64,000 nucleotides of DNA from Candidatus Gastranaerophilales bacterium (GTDB lineage: Bacteria > Cyanobacteriota > Vampirovibrionia > Gastranaerophilales > Gastranaerophilaceae): assembly GCA_944326585.1 (NCBI GenBank), contig CALVEN010000004.1:62001-126000 (forward strand). Reading direction: 5' to 3'. Shown one piece after another: positions 12,152 to 63,450 of the stretch. Numbering within the stretch: the first letter of the stretch is position 1; each line of letters starts with the position of its first letter. The notes below the pieces were generated by a model. That model was not told the origin of the DNA, made no database searches, and was given only the letters and a program-made list of their open reading frames with translations. A program made the position numbers and the translations under genes.

Positions 12152-12330
12152 ATGTAGGAACAAAATTAACACCCGTCCGGAGCATTAACATGTTAACACA
12201 TGTTATTTGGCTTTTCAATAGTATTAAATCTTAATGCCTGATATATGTCTTTAAAAACTTGCTTCGGACCCTCTTTACAGAGATACTGAAACAAGTTCAG
12301 CATGACAAAAACCTTACTCTGCTTATGTTA
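12152..12330. other. intergenic stretch with one dispersed repeat unit
   Basis: The stretch between the candidate RNA promoter and the end of the 662-residue gene shows no coding frame. It includes the short palindrome CTGAA-N4-TTCAG followed by CATGACA (about 12284-12306), a unit that recurs at 33025-33050, and a palindromic AACATGTTAACACATGTT segment near 12186-12205. I see nothing else. Confidence 0.5.
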
Positions 12331-23946: not shown

Positions 23947-25014
23947 ATGAGCATAATTGCGGACGACAACGAATTCAAAATTTCAAAAACCATAAAAAAT
24001 CCGGTAATAAAATCTGAATCAATTGAATTTGATAAAAACTTTGAGAACAGCATAAGACCGAAAACATTTGACGCTTATATAGGTCAGACAGCCTTAAAAG
24101 ACACCTTAAAAATAACGATAGAAGCAGCAAAAAAACGCGGACAGCCACTGGATCATTTGTTATTTTACGGTCCTCCGGGTCTTGGCAAAACAACAATTGC
24201 CGGAGTAATTGCGGAGCAAATGGGAGTTGACATCAAAATAACCTCTGCACCGGCGCTTGAAAGACCGCGTGATATTATAGGGATATTAATGTCTTTAAAA
24301 GGCGGTGAAATACTTTTCATTGACGAAATTCACAGGCTGAACAGGGTTGCGGAAGAAATATTATACCCGGCAATGGAAGATTTTATTCTGGATATGACAA
24401 CAGGTAAGAGCCGAACGGTCAAAACAATGCGCATACCGCTTCCGAAATTCACGTTAATCGGCGCGACAACAAAAGCCGGAGAGCTTTCCGGCCCGCTAAG
24501 AGATCGTTTCGGGATAATCCACAGGCTGGAATTTTATACCACGGACGAATTATCAGAGGTAATAAAACGCACCGCAGGAATTTTGAATATAGATATTGAC
24601 GAAAAAGGTGCCGCAGCGATTGCCGGAAGATCAAGAGGCACTCCCCGTATTGCCAACAGGCTTGTAAAACGCGTAAGCGACTTTGCACTTGTAAAACATG
24701 ACGGAAAGATTACGGAAGATATTGCAAACAGCGCCCTTGACACCTTGAAAATAGATGAATTCGGGCTTGATACAACAGACAGAACGCTTTTAAAACTGAT
24801 TATCGATAAATACGACGGCGGGCCTGTCGGGATTGAAACAATAGCCGCAGCAATAGGCGAAGATGTAAGGACAATAGAAGATGTCTGCGAGCCTTTTTTA
24901 CTGCAGGCAGGGCTTTTGCAGAGAACCCCGAGAGGAAGACGGGTATCACCGGAAGCATACAGACACCTTGGCTATAAAAATATTCAATTTACGGAACAAA
25001 AAGGGCTGTTCTAA
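23947..25014 (+). CDS. ruvB: Holliday junction branch-migration ATPase RuvB
   Basis: A 355-residue RuvB hexamer subunit that drives RuvA-bound Holliday junctions. Walker [10 protein letters not shown], Walker [10 protein letters not shown], sensor I GATTKAG, arginine-finger GPLRDRFGI and the C-terminal winged helix with QRTPRGR are all present. The start has an SD (AAGAAGGA) after an extended -10 TATGCTATTAT (23917-23927). An N-terminal extension of about 25 residues precedes the usual [11 protein letters not shown]. It converges with a pilin gene, overlapping by four bases. Confidence 0.98.
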
Positions 25015-25685
25015 TACGGGTAATCCTCCGGATATTCCCAGCCGTTTTTCATAATTGTATCCGCGCAAAATTCAGGATTTGTGTTACAATCTTTGCCGGG
25101 TGAGGAATAAGGCATGATACCCTTATCAGTTCTTATAAACATAAACACATCTTTTCCGCATTCATTAGGAGAAGAAGCACCGTTTACATCAATATAAAGC
25201 TGAGAAGCATATATTGGGGTACCGTCTTGCGCTTGAGAATTTCTGGGCAAAAATACTATAGTACCGTTTTTTAACCTGAAAAGCAATCTTGTATCATCGG
25301 TTAATATCCCCCACCTGGAGCCGCAGCTCCATTTTTCCCTGTCTAAATCATCATCATAACCGCAATCACTCTTTGTAGCGCACAATACAGGATTTGCAAA
25401 ATACGGTTTCAAATATTTGGTCCAATACGCATTTACATCCATTTCCGCTCCGGTCGGCCATATTGACATCGGACCGTTATCAACTTCCGAAAGCCGTATT
25501 GCATTTGAAACAACAGAAAAAGAATTTTTCAGCTGAACAAGAATTTGTTTTTTCTGATATTTTGCAATAAGCGTCGGAATTGTCATAGCTGCTACGATAC
25601 CAATGATGGCAAGGGTTATAAGAACCTCTGCTAAGGTAAAGGCGGCTTTTTTAGAAGATACTAAGTTACTAAGGCAGTACGGCAC
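25011..25685 (-). CDS. prepilin-like protein with a disrupted 5' end
   Basis: About 224 residues if started at GTG 25685, giving a 15-residue leader and KKAA^[24 protein letters not shown]-type N-terminal helix (Glu +5). The C-terminal part has paired cysteines ([23 protein letters not shown]) and a DVNG motif, typical of type II/IV pseudopilin-like proteins. The frame stays open upstream to 26090, but that extension is a chain of dispersed non-coding repeats, so it is unlikely to be translated. No ATG or SD exists near the leader. It may be functional from GTG, or a pseudogene whose leader was split off by the repeat insertion. Confidence 0.65.
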
Positions 25686-26107
25686 TAAGAAAGTATTTTT
25701 GTCATTCTGAGCTCTCTGCCGAGCAAAACAATTGAGTATTGTTTTGCGAGAGGAAAAGAAGAATCTCCTGATATTTTTATTGAGATCCCGCAATAAATGC
25801 GGGATGACGTTTATTACTTGACCAAAGTTAAGTATGGTGTCCTGCCTCAGGCAGTGCGGGATGACGGTTATAGGTTGACCAATGTCTAGTGTGTTGTCGT
25901 GCCTCTCTTGTTCGCTCGCATGAAACGGCGTTGCGGTCTTTGCCTTCGCAAAGCCCTTCAGCCTCTGCTCGCTCACGCTCAGGCACTTCAGGATGACATG
26001 TTGCAGGTCGGATTTACTAATCCGACAGTTACCTCTTAGTGCCTTAGTATCATAGTATCTTAGTAACTTTCCCCAGAATATACCGCCCAAACCCTTGCTA
26101 TTTCTAT
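25686..26107. repeat. dispersed short-palindrome repeat field inserted before the pilin core
   Basis: About 420 bp made of short hairpin units ending in GATGAC or AATGAC: CCCGCA-N6-TGCGGG near 25786-25806, CCTGCC-tca-GGCAG near 25841-25862, a GTCGGATT/AATCCGAC hairpin near 26007-26026, and two copies of a CTTAGTATC/TTAGTAACTT motif that flank the field (about 25656-25687 and 26033-26070). Several units recur almost exactly at 33145-33320. Bracketing by the same motif suggests insertion or recombination between copies. Confidence 0.75.
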
Positions 26108-26155
26108 CTAGGAGAGTCGCCCCCCCCCGAGTTTCTCTTTTTTCGTATTTTTCAT
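26108..26155 (-). pseudogene. orphan prepilin leader with G9 tract, out of frame
   Basis: ATG 26155 has a good SD (AAGGAG) and reads MKNTKKEKLGGGRLL then TAG, crossing a run of nine G. With ten G it would read on as GGGATLLDRNSKG, matching the leader ends of the other prepilins here (GGGDLLSRLRQG, GAAPLSRQDKG). Immediately after this leader the repeat field starts instead of FTLAE. It therefore looks like the detached start of the pilin gene at 25011-25685. Confidence 0.6.
26120..26128 (-). repeat. homopolymer G9 (C9 on the plus strand)
   Basis: Nine consecutive G on the minus strand inside a prepilin leader. One more G would join the SD-equipped ATG to the downstream leader frame. The same tract and same off-by-one state occur at 50905-50913. 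Confidence 0.9.
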
Positions 26156-28772: not shown

Positions 28773-28923
28773 CAGGAAAAATATACATACCTGAACAATA
28801 TAAAAATATTTCCTCAACGACGCTCTCACCTCCGGCTCCGCTATAGTTTCGGAAACATTTTTATATTGTTTTAGTATATTTTTATGAGCACTTGTGCTAA
28901 AATTAAACCAAAGGAGAAAATAT

Positions 28924-32693: not shown

Positions 32694-33420
32694 TTATATG
32701 TCATCCTGAGGTATCAAAGGCACAACAACATATAAGGTCATTATGGAACTTTACAGGTCATCCTGAGGGCGAAGCCCTCAGGATCTCATTAAACAAGAGA
32801 TTCTTCGCTAACGCTCAGAATGACACTATCTTGTCGTGCCTTTGGCACCCCTAACAAAGACTTGAATAGACATACCAAAATTATCAAACATGTTGTCGTG
32901 CCTTTGGCACCCCTCTACCTCTGGGAGAGGGTAGAATTTCTTAACGAGCACACGCGAGTTTAGAAATACGGGTGAGGGTTCTCATCCTGAGGCGCAACCG
33001 AAGGATCTCAAAAAGTTAATGAGATGCTGAAACAAGTTCAGCATGACAGAGTATTGTCACGGCTCAGCAGCTCCTCTCCCTGCGGGAGAGGGTAAGGGAG
33101 AGGGGGCAAATGTATGTTGGGCTTTCTGCCCAAATGTAAATCCTTAATGCCTTAGTATCTTTTTACATAAGATCCCGCAATAAATGCGGGATGACGTATA
33201 AAGGTTGACCAATGTCAAGTATAGTGTCCTGCCTCAGGCAGTGCGGGATGACGTGTAAAGATTGACCAATATTAAGTATAGTGTCCTGCCTTTGGCAGTG
33301 CTGGATGACGTTAGTATATTGTCATCCTGAGGCTTTAGCCGAAGGATCTCATTAAACAAGAGATTCTTCGCTAACGCTCAGAATGACATTGTCATATAAG
33401 TCCTATGGCAACGGGTTGCA
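32694..33420. repeat. intergenic field of dispersed short palindromic repeats
   Basis: About 0.7 kb without genes. A composite unit (hairpin CCTGAG-N-CTCAGGATCTC, then AAGAGATTCTTCGCTAACGC and CAGAATGACA) occurs at about 32758-32824 and 33321-33390. GTCGTGCCTTTGGCACCCCT occurs at about 32833 and 32893. CTGAA-N4-TTCAGCATGACA is at 33025-33050. A CCCGCA/TGCGGG unit is at 33171-33193, and two tandem 'TTGACCAAT...GTGTCCTGCC' units are at 33203-33310. An inverted GGGAGAGG/CCTCTCCC segment is near 33072-33105. Nearly all units end in (G)ATGAC. This matches repeat families common in uncultured gut bacteria. Confidence 0.8.
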
Positions 33421-40617: not shown

Positions 40618-41661
40618 TTAATTGGTTACACAAAGCACATTATAACCGGAATTAGCACGTGGTGAGTGGTCACATGAAGGACCACCCTCAAGGGATAAAC
40701 TGCAATATCGTGCATGATAACCCTCGTTGCCGGAATCGGAATACCCTGCCCAAAATCTGTAAACTTCTCTTGCAGAATCCAAACCTACATCTTCTATTGA
40801 AACATTTTTTTCGGCAAGTTCAATACCTAAAGCATGCAATTGAGAAACATCCGGCAAATTATTGACACTGCCGCAGGCTTTTACGGCACCTGCCCAGAAA
40901 TCATTATCGCGTTCACAAGAATCCGCGTCATTACCAAATCCACCGTCTGCAAGGGCTTTGCATTCATCCGCAGTTAACGCATCATAAGTAACCGATTTTG
41001 TAAAACACGTTCCGTCTGACAATTTGACGGCACAAGGTTTATGCCCGTCCAATTCGGGGACATTTAAATATCTCAAATCTTTACCGTCAGCATTAGGAGT
41101 TTTAAATCCGGATGTGTCGTATAATAAAGCAATACAACTTACACCTGAAAATTGATTTGAATAAGGATTTTCGCGGCATTGCGGATCATAAGCTATAATG
41201 CCGGTAGTACCGTTTGCAAACTGGACACCAATAGCTTCCGTCCCCCAATCAGCCTGACCGAGCTGTGCGGCTGTTTTTACATTTTCAACATTTACTTCAA
41301 GTTCATCTTTTCCCCAATAAACTTTATCTTCAAAACATGACATTATATCCGTATTGTTACAAATTTTATTAATTTTAAAATGTCTTGCTAACTCAGCCAC
41401 AAAATCCGCAGTAGATCTATAACCGGCAAGAGTTTGCTGTATATTCATAGTCTTGAGAGCTTCTTCCAACTTTCTTTCAAAAACCTGAGCTGACGTATTC
41501 CACGCACGAGTCTGGTAACTTGAAACAAGAGTAGGAATTGTCATAGCTGCGACAATACCTATGAGTGCCAAAGTTATTAAAACTTCAGCAAGCGTAAAGC
41601 CCTTGTCCTGTCTACTTAGAGGAGCCGCCCCCCTGTTTACCCTAAAATCAGCACTTTTCAT
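40618..41661 (-). CDS. prepilin-like protein, CFEDKVYWG/WAGAVKACG family
   Basis: 347 residues, SD GGAGG. The 21-residue leader ends RQDKG^[24 protein letters not shown]-style helix with Glu at +5, and contains a G6 tract (41628-41633) that is in frame. The body shares the blocks CFEDKVYWG, WGTEAIGVQFANGTTGIIAY, CIALLYDTSGFKTPN, GTCFT, FWAGAVKACGSVNNLPDVSQL with the protein at 31665-32693. Six or more cysteines suggest disulfides. It follows thyX by 12 bases on the same strand. Surface or pseudopilus role is inferred. Confidence 0.9.
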   Translation of the reverse strand: MKSADFRVNRGAAPLSRQDKGFTLAEVLITLALIGIVAAMTIPTLVSSYQTRAWNTSAQVFERKLEEALKTMNIQQTLAGYRSTADFVAELARHFKINKICNNTDIMSCFEDKVYWGKDELEVNVENVKTAAQLGQADWGTEAIGVQFANGTTGIIAYDPQCRENPYSNQFSGVSCIALLYDTSGFKTPNADGKDLRYLNVPELDGHKPCAVKLSDGTCFTKSVTYDALTADECKALADGGFGNDADSCERDNDFWAGAVKACGSVNNLPDVSQLHALGIELAEKNVSIEDVGLDSAREVYRFWAGYSDSGNEGYHARYCSLSLEGGPSCDHSPRANSGYNVLCVTN

Positions 41662-49439: not shown

Positions 49440-50915
49440 TTAAAATATTTTTATAGGTTCTTTAACCATCATTCTGCAATCGCGCGTCGTATCTTTGCAC
49501 AAATCATACTGGACTTTGCCGTCACAGTATTTAGAACTTTTGATATAACCGACGGCACATGCCGCACTTCTGAAATTCGCGTCTTTCATTAATAATTTTA
49601 AGGCTCTGTTCGGTCCGCTGTAGTCGTCATATACTACATTTACTTTTAAATGCTCCATATTGTTTCCGCCTGACGGTGACGATTCATTATACGCAGCTAT
49701 AACTTTCCCCGATTTTAACAAGTAAAACGGAAATACGTCTTCCCATAATATACTTTTGCCCGATTCCCCGTTTACATCTATATATATTTCAAATCCCTCT
49801 CTGTCTAATTCGTCCTCTGCGTCAGACAACTCGCTTATTGTTACTAAATCTGAACCGATATATAATTTCAACCCGTTTGAAAATACTATATGCGGAGTCA
49901 ATGAACTGAAATTTTTTGAGGAAACTTTGTTATTCACAGTTGATACATCAATTGAACAGTCGCTTGAATCTATATTATAATTGTCTTTTATATATTCGCA
50001 AAGCTTTAGACCATATGAGACATCCTCAATTGGAGGTTCTTCTTCCTCAGGTTCTATACGCTCATAACACATTGAATACACAAGTGACTGATCAGGATAT
50101 GTCCATTCAGACCAGCATGGCATCCATTCTTGACACCCATAATCGCCTGTAGAACTGTTAAATCTAGGCGTATAATCATCCATGTAAACAGAAAAAAATT
50201 TTCCGTTCTCATCTCTTAATGTAATTTGATAAAATTCATCATGAGTACCATACGAAGTGTAGTTAAAAATATAGAATGAATAATTCGTACCTGAGTATTG
50301 CTTTCCAAAATAATCTGTACGAATAACATTTTGTACATCATAAGTATCTATACCCAATTCAGCCAATTTTTCAGTTGATGTAACTCCTGCTACATGACTT
50401 TTTAAATAACTCTTAGAAAAAGGTACAGTAGTTTCAGCTTCTACTGCACTCACATAACTGCCGCAAATTTCAAGTGTATCCGTGATATATTTATACGGTG
50501 TTTTGCAAAAATTTATAGGTTTATAATTCGTATATTTTTCTATTGCATTTTCGCATTCAGCTTGAGAGCTCGGATAAATATGAAATGCTGGAAGTTGTGC
50601 ACAATCGATTGTACCATCAGACCAGGTCGAACACGGTCTGTCCGCAAATTCATCTTCTTCATCCTCGTCAGGCTTATTGTTTTTCAACTCCTCATATTCA
50701 GATATAAAATCCAACAAATCAGCTAATACATTTGCAGAAATACTTTTTACTGCATTATATCCCATATAATACGAATAATAATCAACTTTTTTCATCTTAC
50801 TGAGCGTTATGGGTAAAGTAACCATGACAACAAGCGTCATCACGACAAGCACAATTGACAACTCACCCAGTGTAAACCCTTGTCTTAAGCGGCTAAGAAG
50901 GTCGCCCCCCCCCAA
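49440..50915 (-). CDS. mosaic prepilin-like protein (FTLGE type), start out of frame through a G9 tract
   Basis: The open frame starts at TTG 50915 with a short leader GGGDLLSRLRQG^FTLGELSIVLVVMTLVVMVTLP (Glu +5), 491 residues. The better start, ATG 50944 with SD GGAGAG (reading MKRLCCLVFSW), is out of frame across nine G and stops at 50885; ten G would join it. The body has a variable middle (residues ~55-330) and a C-terminal ~150 residues almost identical to the protein at 62095-63450 (ISELSDAEDELDREGFEIYI ... DCRMMVKEP). Expression may be phase-variable. Confidence 0.82.
   Translation of the reverse strand: MGGGDLLSRLRQGFTLGELSIVLVVMTLVVMVTLPITLSKMKKVDYYSYYMGYNAVKSISANVLADLLDFISEYEELKNNKPDEDEEDEFADRPCSTWSDGTIDCAQLPAFHIYPSSQAECENAIEKYTNYKPINFCKTPYKYITDTLEICGSYVSAVEAETTVPFSKSYLKSHVAGVTSTEKLAELGIDTYDVQNVIRTDYFGKQYSGTNYSFYIFNYTSYGTHDEFYQITLRDENGKFFSVYMDDYTPRFNSSTGDYGCQEWMPCWSEWTYPDQSLVYSMCYERIEPEEEEPPIEDVSYGLKLCEYIKDNYNIDSSDCSIDVSTVNNKVSSKNFSSLTPHIVFSNGLKLYIGSDLVTISELSDAEDELDREGFEIYIDVNGESGKSILWEDVFPFYLLKSGKVIAAYNESSPSGGNNMEHLKVNVVYDDYSGPNRALKLLMKDANFRSAACAVGYIKSSKYCDGKVQYDLCKDTTRDCRMMVKEPIKIF
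49456..49891. repeat. 436-bp near-identical repeat, copy 1 (pilin 3' end)
   Basis: Matches 62111-62546 in the same orientation without gaps and with about ten mismatches counted by eye. It ends abruptly at the border of the variable pilin middle. Confidence 0.9.
50757..50879. repeat. 123-bp near-identical repeat, copy 1 (pilin N-terminal helix)
   Basis: Matches 63247-63369 with one mismatch seen. It codes for the mature N-terminus and hydrophobic helix plus the MKKVDYYSYYMGY segment. Confidence 0.9.
50905..50913 (-). repeat. homopolymer G9 in a pilin leader
   Basis: Nine G on the minus strand between an SD-equipped ATG (50944) and the prepilin frame. n=10 or 7 would put them in frame; n=9 does not. 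Confidence 0.9.
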
Positions 50916-51008
50916 CTAAAAACTAGACAGCATAACCTTTTCATAAACTCTCCTTTTTTATTTATAATATCAATATTAATCGAAAAAATCAATAGTTTGA
51001 ATTTATGT

Positions 51009-60761: not shown

Positions 60762-62098
60762 AAAAATTTTTAAATCTGGTATTTGCGCTTATTTTAACCG
60801 TAACAACAGCAAATGCCGAAAATATTAATAAAGCTATTTCGGATTCCCGAATAAATAAAGGTGCCGTATCAATTTCCGTAAGAGACGCAGAAACAGGCAA
60901 AATACTTTATGAACTTAACAGCGATAAACCCGTTTCTCCGGCATCCACTCTAAAATCAATAACTTTAGCTGCCGCTTTAAATGAACTGGGAAAAGATTTT
61001 GAATTTACAACAGAGCTTTATAAAAATACAAATAACGAATTAATCTTAAAACTCGGAGCTGACCCGTTTTTAAAAGCAAACGACTTAAAAACGCTGTTAA
61101 AGACAGCACATGAAAAAAATATAATTGAGCCAAAAGCATTTTTTATAGATGACACAATTATCGACCAAACCGAATGGGGCGAAGGCTGGCAGTGGGATGA
61201 CGATTTAAATCCGCTTATGCCCAAATTCAGTGCATATAATATTGACAATAACCTTTTAAAAATAACGGTGGAGCCGACTTTCAAAGGCGCCCCCGCAGAA
61301 ATAAAACTTGACGTGTTTTATCCTGCAACATTTGTAAACCTTGTCACGACAGGCAGCGCAAATGACGTTAAAATAAGCAGAAACAACAGCATCGCACCGA
61401 ATGTTCTGAATATTGAAGGAACTGTTGCAAAACGTGAACAAATTGAAATTCCGATTAATTACCCGAAAAGATATTTTATATTAAGACTTGAAGATGCAAT
61501 ACGGGATGAAAATATAGAATACTACGGGAATTTCGCTATAGAAAAACTCCCCGCACAGAATATATACCTTGTAGCAAAAACTGCCAACCCGATTAAAAAA
61601 GCAGTTGATGCCATAATGCAGGAAAGCAATAATATGGCTGCGGAAACCGTGTTTAAAATTGCGGGAGGACATTACATGCAAAAAACAGGTTCCGCTGAAG
61701 ATGCCGTAAAAATGCTGCTGGATTACTGCAGGCAGCTCGGTATTGATACAAAAAACATTAAAATAGTTGACGGAAGCGGAGTTTCTAAAAACAATCTTGT
61801 AACAGCGGACTTCATGACATCTTTTTTAACCGCGCAGTATAAAAAAGATCCGGCTTATAAAGATATATTCGCATCCTCGGGTGAGGGCACCTTAAAAGAC
61901 CGCATGCTGTATTTTAAAGATAACCTGAGAGCTAAAACCGGAACCCTTACTGACGTAAGCGCAATAGCAGGCTTTCTCACAACAGCCCGCGGCAGACTTG
62001 TTGCCTTTGATATTATGACAAATGACCCGCAAACAAAAAATTCCGACAAAAAAATGCTTGAGGAATATATATTAAGAGCGATTCATTCATCATACTAA
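60758..62098 (+). CDS. dacB: D-alanyl-D-alanine carboxypeptidase/endopeptidase (PBP4, DacB-type)
   Basis: 446 residues with a signal peptide (MKKFLNLVFALILTVTTANA). The penicillin-binding motifs are SPASTLKSIT (SxxK), ESNNMAAETV (SxN) and KTGTLTDVSA (KTG), with the long insertion between SxxK and SxN that marks class C PBP4. It trims or cross-link-hydrolyses peptidoglycan in the periplasm. It is the last gene of the acyltransferase-nitrilase-PBP4 operon and converges with a pilin gene with a four-base stop overlap. Confidence 0.95.
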   Translation: MKKFLNLVFALILTVTTANAENINKAISDSRINKGAVSISVRDAETGKILYELNSDKPVSPASTLKSITLAAALNELGKDFEFTTELYKNTNNELILKLGADPFLKANDLKTLLKTAHEKNIIEPKAFFIDDTIIDQTEWGEGWQWDDDLNPLMPKFSAYNIDNNLLKITVEPTFKGAPAEIKLDVFYPATFVNLVTTGSANDVKISRNNSIAPNVLNIEGTVAKREQIEIPINYPKRYFILRLEDAIRDENIEYYGNFAIEKLPAQNIYLVAKTANPIKKAVDAIMQESNNMAAETVFKIAGGHYMQKTGSAEDAVKMLLDYCRQLGIDTKNIKIVDGSGVSKNNLVTADFMTSFLTAQYKKDPAYKDIFASSGEGTLKDRMLYFKDNLRAKTGTLTDVSAIAGFLTTARGRLVAFDIMTNDPQTKNSDKKMLEEYILRAIHSSY

Positions 62099-63450
62099 AA
62101 TATTTTAACAGGTTCTTTAACCATCATTCTGCAATCGCGCGTCGTATCCTTACACAAATCATACTGGACTTTGCCGTCACAGTATTTAGAGCTTTTGATA
62201 TAACCGATGGCACATGCCGCACTTCTGAAATTCGCGTCTTTCATCAATAATTTCAAGGCTCTGTTCGGTCCGCTGTAGTCGTCATATACTACATTTACTT
62301 TTAAATGCTCCATATTGTTTCCGCCTGACGGTGACGATTCATTATACGCAGCTATAACTTTCCCCGATTTTAACAAGTAAAACGGAAATACATCTTCCCA
62401 TAATATACTTTTGCCCGATTTCCCGTTTACATCTATATATATTTCAAATCCCTCTCTGTCTAATTCGTCCTCTGCGTCCGACAACTCGCTTATTGTTACT
62501 AAATCTGAACCTATATATAATTTCAACCCGTTTGAAAATACTATATTAGGAGTTAAACCCGTAAAATTCTTCGACGTAACCTTACTCTGTACGTTTGCAG
62601 GAGATACACTGCAATCAGAAGCTGATATATTATAATCTTTTTTAATCTTATCACATAATACATCGTTGTATGAATCAAGGACTTCATCAGACTCATCCGG
62701 TTCAACTTCTTCTATAGGGGTTAAACAGGCAGCATAAACTGTTGAATTATTTCTATGTGCCGCAGAATCTCCGCCCATTCCTGATGACTCTGTAAAAACA
62801 GAAGCTCTTATTCCGTCTGTATGTGTACCCTTAGCAAACCAGAACGCTGTGTAATCCATTGGGCAATCATAATATTCTCCTTTTCCAGAAAGACAAAGCG
62901 ATACAAATTTTATAGGATTAAGCAAATTCAATTTTTCTAAAGTCTCGATATCCGTTCCGTCATTAGTCAGCTTATATATTTCCGCAGCACCATAGGCACT
63001 CGGTAGTAAACCGTTACATGCCTTTACTGCACCTGCATAATAGTCCTCTTCATAATAACAGCCGTAGATATTATCGTAAATTTTCGCTAATTCCTCACAC
63101 TCACTTTTACTGACCGGCACAGGAATAAATGCAGGTTCATTAATACATTCATCAGAAAATTGCACAAGACATTGCTTGGCAGGTTCTTCCAAAGGAGTAT
63201 TCAACACAGTCTGTAATATATTTGCAGACATGTCCTTTACCGCCATATATCCCATATAATACGAATAATAATCAACTTTTTTCATCTTACTGAGCGTTAT
63301 GGGTAAAGTAACCATGACAACAAGCGTCATCACGACAAGCACAATTGACAACTCCCCCAGTGTAAACCCACGTCTAAAAAGGCTTAAATTCACCTCATCC
63401 CCGGTTTCGGGTCTGCTAATCACAACTCTTTTCATACCTTTCTTCTGCAT
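62095..63450 (-). CDS. mosaic prepilin-like protein (FTLGE type)
   Basis: 451 residues from ATG 63450 (MQKKGMKRVV), which lies seven bases from a TATAAT box; ATG 63435 is the alternative. The 28-residue leader ends LSLFRRG^FTLGELSIVLVVMTLVVMVTLP (Glu +5). The N-terminal helix and the C-terminal ~150 residues are nearly identical to the protein at 49440-50915, while the middle differs and contains the EDYYAGAVKACNGLLP block seen in the other pilin family of the window. This leader has no G tract. Likely a surface-exposed pseudopilin that recombines with its paralogue. Confidence 0.9.
   Translation of the reverse strand: MQKKGMKRVVISRPETGDEVNLSLFRRGFTLGELSIVLVVMTLVVMVTLPITLSKMKKVDYYSYYMGYMAVKDMSANILQTVLNTPLEEPAKQCLVQFSDECINEPAFIPVPVSKSECEELAKIYDNIYGCYYEEDYYAGAVKACNGLLPSAYGAAEIYKLTNDGTDIETLEKLNLLNPIKFVSLCLSGKGEYYDCPMDYTAFWFAKGTHTDGIRASVFTESSGMGGDSAAHRNNSTVYAACLTPIEEVEPDESDEVLDSYNDVLCDKIKKDYNISASDCSVSPANVQSKVTSKNFTGLTPNIVFSNGLKLYIGSDLVTISELSDAEDELDREGFEIYIDVNGKSGKSILWEDVFPFYLLKSGKVIAAYNESSPSGGNNMEHLKVNVVYDDYSGPNRALKLLMKDANFRSAACAIGYIKSSKYCDGKVQYDLCKDTTRDCRMMVKEPVKIF
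62111..62546. repeat. 436-bp near-identical repeat, copy 2 (pilin 3' end)
   Basis: Direct copy of 49456-49891, 12,655 bp away, with about ten mismatches and no gaps. Confidence 0.9.
63247..63369. repeat. 123-bp near-identical repeat, copy 2 (pilin N-terminal helix)
   Basis: Copy of 50757-50879 with one mismatch seen. Confidence 0.9.

Follow-up and report, generated by a model that had tools for sequence, protein, structure and literature searches.

The window analyzed here, that is, the whole stretch of 64,000 nucleotides from a Candidatus Gastranaerophilales bacterium, contains a prepilin-like gene whose Shine-Dalgarno (SD)-equipped ATG is separated from the prepilin frame by a run of nine G, which raised the question of whether this tract could work as a slipped-strand phase switch. 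The following elements were observed at the locus:

50945..50958, minus strand: Shine-Dalgarno region AAAAAGGAGAGTTT, which contains GGAGAG at 50953-50948
50885..50944, minus strand: short OFF-phase open reading frame MKRLCCLVFSWGGATFLAA, from ATG 50944-50942 to the stop TAA 50887-50885
50905..50913, minus strand: G9 tract, the putative frame switch, at which 7 or 10 G would restore the prepilin frame
49440..50903, minus strand: prepilin-like gene of 487 codons that needs +1, with its F codon at 50876 and an N-terminal hydrophobic helix

This arrangement coincides to the base with that given in a preliminary description of the sequence, i.e. an SD, ATG 50944, nine G at 50913-50905, a stop at 50887-50885 and, one G short, the prepilin frame. 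The spacing from ATG 50944 to the tract is 31 nt. The peptide DLLSRLRQG^FTLGELSIVLVV, with its F at 50876, is encoded in the long frame, which extends from 50903 to its stop at 49440, and with ten or seven G the ATG at 50944 would read MKRLCCLVFSWGGGDLLSRLRQG^FTLGE. Dinucleotide shuffling of the window gave 0.07 expected G9 runs versus two observed, both of them within prepilin leaders.

The product of the gene fulfills the sequence definition of a prepilin, i.e. a leader ending in G or A followed by F, an E at +5 and a hydrophobic stretch, and in its cleavage context DLLSRLRQG^FTLGELSIVLVVMTLVV the F1 and E5 residues are invariant in eight relatives. Family members with FTLAEVLIT score above the cut-off of PF07963 (N_methyl); the window protein remained under it (E 0.22, 11.6 bits versus 21.2, and 16.4 bits in the genome search), and it is therefore termed prepilin-like. 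Its AF2 model shows helices at 3-28 and 33-66 and strands later in the chain with a mean pLDDT of just 51, and owing to this low confidence no fold search was based on the model. The genome encodes one prepilin peptidase (PF01478 match over the cut-off). Other prepilin loci were found in the window:

25011..26155, minus strand: second tract-bearing prepilin gene (L037), with ATG 26155 and, at 26128-26120, a G9 that puts it one base off frame
40618..41661, minus strand: tract-less prepilin, locked in frame, with the same leader cassette, MKSADFRVNRGAAPLSRQDKG^FTLAE, and G6 only
62095..63450, minus strand: paralogue of the window gene without a G tract

In L037, the open frame runs for 368 codons from 26117 and carries FTLAEVLIT, with the F at 25640, after a 159-codon leader. 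The window protein and the tract-less paralogue are almost identical in the N terminus and in the C-terminal half, including a common C-terminal domain, and diverge in the middle. This pattern, in 49440-50876 set against 62098-63366, suggests, as far as an alignment can tell, gene conversion or segmental exchange. The leader match to this paralogue that had been claimed earlier was confirmed for the MKR leader only, since the two are otherwise unlike and the paralogue lacks a G tract.

A rival explanation for this locus would be that translation begins inside the prepilin frame, at TTG 50915 or at other internal starts, the tract being irrelevant. TTG 50915 lies in frame at the tract edge and is the sole in-frame start at the window locus, as the preliminary description held, but it has no SD. 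The frames downstream of every G/C tract of at least 8 in a set of loci from this genome and close relatives were analyzed without making an open frame a requirement. A prepilin motif was located at most 900 nt from 198 of the 232 tracts, and at 185 loci the motif frame was open from the tract, with 0 stops in 12,115 codons, whereas stops made up 9.8% of the codons in the two remaining frames. Such a frame, open right to the tract, would be unneeded if starts were internal, and its lack of stops indicates that ribosomes read the prepilin frame from the tract onward instead of initiating internally. The commonest cassette, AATAAC-G9, has a TAA in the prepilin frame immediately before the tract, and the codons that come next include no ATG, GTG or TTG, so that the SD-ATG is the only visible start. 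Internal initiation is, accordingly, very unlikely.

The arrangement is not restricted to the window locus. The genome (1.70 Mb, 16 contigs), which was inspected only in stretches around tracts and prepilins, has about 45 G/C runs of at least 9 and 68 N_methyl (prepilin) matches, and nearly all of these runs sit between an SD-equipped start and a frame open to the prepilin motif FTLAEVLIT, which is found 7 to ~190 codons downstream. Sequence relatives belong mostly to Candidatus Gastranaerophilales assemblies. Within the genus, every genome sampled had, at unequal frequency, the cassette ATG-(~15-48 nt)-G9-CGACTCTCCTAAGTAG or a related version, in which both off frames soon run into a stop. 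When 146 genomes of the order were drawn, many genera of the same family had tens of occurrences per genome of an SD followed by a G run of at least 9, and this combination was nearly absent in the other families of the order (2/22, with at most 3 matches). Genera other than that of the window have different leader sequences and other tract lengths, i.e. G10 in genome G048, G11-G12 in G119, G9-G12 in G073, G12-G14 in G054 and G10-G16 in G135. A single-gene accident or an assembly slip is rejected in view of this recurrence together with the dependence of tract length on flank register described below.

Other features of these leaders were observed. Some prepilin leaders (L088, L079, L014, L017, L021 and L027) form a second set in which poly-C (C7-C11) replaces poly-G, and most of these are off by one too. 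From tract to cleavage site, the leaders are up to ~190 codons long in this genome (L009-L051; in the window, 25640-26117) and up to ~250 in G054, and they are mosaics of the repeat fragments MLKRVQHD, VIPHLLRDL, HPEAIAEGSQK and PTLTLPLKGGRE in which the frame is kept open; related repeat DNA is also present elsewhere in the window (12241-12311, 28802-28862 and 32696-33388). In some leader families (L013, L024, L046 and L071 of the same genus, and also in G050 and G048), the SD (GGAGGTTAA, AGGAGTT, AAGGAGA) is perfectly complemented just after the tract (TTAACCTCC, AACTCCT, TCTCCTT). This complementarity is suggestive of a hairpin that could mask the SD in some leader families. No clear excess of such an SD-sequestering hairpin (CTCCT after the tract) was found over all leader families. 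In several genera, CTCC follows the tract more often than expected.

The states of the tracts were determined in 276 tract-bearing leaders from 18 genomes and 8 genera, with starts assigned by a scripted SD-and-ATG rule that may have misassigned a few loci, and from assemblies that report the majority tract length only. Among them, 158 need +1, 76 need +2 (-1) and 42 (15%) are in frame. Hence, both ON and OFF lengths occur, and a slippage-prone repeat sets the frame between ATG and prepilin at the window G9 as well as at these 276 similar loci, a layout that recurs in at least eight genera. Differing states of like leaders were seen directly: in this genome, L009, L026, L031 and L040 have G10 and are in frame as opposed to ~25 off-frame loci, and the L034 leader has G9 in this genome and G10 in G002 with identical neighbouring sequence, one case of near-identical leaders with G9 or G10 across species. 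In relatives of the window locus itself, where a mixture of 9, 10 or 11 G had been put forward as support for phase variation, only part of that mixture was found: in G002, G9 at two loci (both need +1) or G11 (needs +2), and in others no tract. Short-tract genes were dropped as locked-ON controls, being too few (8 genes).

In a first locus set, G tracts with flanks in frame at 10 (residue-2) had lengths of 9 (100 loci), 10 (18), 11 (6) and 8 (2), and those with flanks in frame at 9 (residue-0) had lengths of 10 (9) and 9 (1), which makes tract length dependent on flank register (Fisher p=6e-6). In-frame loci numbered 23 of 175, as compared with 38.6±3.1 when lengths were permuted (0 of 5000) and with 31.3±2.5 when they were permuted within genomes (10 of 5000). 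These counts overstate independence, because leaders in one genome share ancestry. The in-frame avoidance observed here is, judging from tract lengths, what selection for an OFF majority beside ON would give.

The same avoidance bears on the possibility of a one-base error in the assemblies, with real tracts that are in frame. Long G runs are hard for Illumina sequencing, tract lengths in databases may err (PMC9187656), and within a genome the offset often has a single sign. A constant base-calling error is nevertheless disfavored by the avoidance of the in-frame length in each flank register: in the same genus, flanks in frame at 9 are reported with 10 and flanks in frame at 10 with 9. Moreover, both offset signs are present in the single G007 assembly, and in-frame loci lie beside off-frame ones. 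A sequencing or assembly artefact is thus extremely unlikely. In the assembly of genome G059, gaps (NN) were noticed inside many G tracts, as would follow from either length heterogeneity or poly-G sequencing trouble.

A more serious alternative is programmed recoding, in which the genes would be out of frame by design and each cell would make a constant proportion of full-length prepilin because RNA polymerase slips, or the ribosome shifts frame, on the G run. This explanation draws on the constancy of lengths and offsets per lineage: 14 of 14 tracts are G12 in one register of G119, 13 of 14 are G10 in G048 and most are G9 in the genus of the window; the offset is +1 in most of this genus and in G048, and -1 in G119, G073 and most of G054; and the three leader registers of G073, with lengths 9, 11 and 12, share one common offset. 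Programmed transcriptional slippage also resembles the present case in placing a homopolymer of at least 8 bases between two frames, but in known bacterial examples it usually occurs at A or T runs and with a fixed frame relation (PMC3711429), unlike the poly-G loci studied here, where in-frame and off-frame tracts are mixed. The requirement for one fixed frame relation across homologues was not met, since +1, -1 and in-frame loci coexist, even though the relation is fixed in several lineages. The offset varies between lineages, and G007 combines C tracts that need +1 with G tracts (length 10) that mostly need -1; in-frame tracts exist in most genomes sampled, and in G135 half of the loci are in frame over the broad range of 10 to 16. 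A fixed +1 programmed frameshift at all loci is excluded by the -1 loci (G007 G tracts, G119, G073 and G054). Shared leader ancestry weakens the uniform offsets as independent evidence. Although we regard recoding as unlikely, directional slippage or frameshifting is not excluded and stays a real rival.

An intermediate reading, which we find doubtful, is that a family-wide prepilin repertoire is kept just out of frame by lineage-fixed leader poly-G and is expressed via directional slippage on DNA or RNA. Part of the same reading, and just as tentative, is that dozens of pilins are under joint control by contingency and recoding, with leaders that comprise up to ~250 residues of repeat fragments. 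In G073, G119, G048 and G054, tract length was seen to be near-constant per genome or leader family and to differ between genera (G9 to G13), MutS1 notwithstanding. Loss of mismatch repair as a cause is rejected, given that MutS1-type genes are present in all tract-rich family members tested. The genome of the window has both MutS1 and MutS2, and because MutS1 is intact the slippage rate may be modest.

Taken together, the explanation that we favor, with a probability of about 0.72 and without read or RNA evidence, is that this genome has ~40 slipped-strand ON/OFF contingency switches, OFF by default, that act on its large pilin repertoire, and that the window G9 is one of them. The phase switch proposed in the preliminary description is supported as the best reading, by the open downstream frames, by in-frame G10 copies of the same cassette, by near-identical leaders with G9 or G10 in different species and by the avoidance of the in-frame length in each flank register, and is not proven. 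The finding reaches beyond the one locus, to ~40 loci in this genome and usually tens in each related one. At nearly all loci the tract is placed between an SD-equipped start codon and a putative type IV prepilin cleavage site. Replication slippage would add or remove a single G; ribosomes would enter the prepilin frame at a tract length of 10 (or 7) G (ON) and would meet a stop within a few codons at 9 G (OFF). The cytoplasmic leader would be removed by the prepilin peptidase, and for this reason the mature pilin should, by inference, stay unaltered by the tract-encoded glycines. With most loci OFF and ~15% ON, each cell would show a few members of a large pilin repertoire, in a combination that changes at random, and pilins are probably flipping on and off at random in individual cells. 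Actual switching, length variation within populations, tract-dependent expression, pilus display and a benefit in host, phage or adhesion diversity are inferred. Against the switch, tract lengths vary less than those of classical contingency loci and are lineage-specific.

Replication slippage at poly-G is a known ON/OFF mechanism, in Neisseria also (PMC4085013), and related systems have been reported. In the gut commensal Bifidobacterium breve, G-tract length variants decide the expression of a sortase-dependent pilus, and an early intragenic G tract likewise splits signal sequence and pilin into two frames; these are, however, Gram-positive sortase pili with two loci in the strain studied (PMC9187656), whereas the genes described here are type IV prepilins, with tens of loci per genome and the tract in a leader that should be cleaved off. 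The Opa proteins of Neisseria are also a multicopy surface-protein family in which a separate repeat tract lies within the leader-peptide coding part of every copy, but the repeats are CTCTT pentamers in ~11 adhesin genes (PMC3745409) instead of poly-G/poly-C in ~40 or more prepilin genes. In Campylobacter jejuni and Neisseria, poly-G/C tracts with a modal length near 9-10 switch surface functions, with 29 loci in C. jejuni NCTC11168 and ~15-18 poly-G tracts in Neisseria pathogens, of mixed function in both (PMC4965091, PMC5953494); in contrast, most tracts described here are in one gene family, and their lengths are narrower.

A literature search, which left most subscription journals outside, revealed no paper joining Gastranaerophilales with phase variation, and the family-wide pattern is unreported there. 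Because start codon and pilin are in different frames, gene callers would miss or truncate these pilin genes. The switch hypothesis is directly testable with public gut reads. If it is true, ~40 or more pilins per genome would be among the largest single-family phase-variable repertoires yet seen, and uncultured gut relatives of cyanobacteria would have evolved such switches outside the pathogens in which they are best known.
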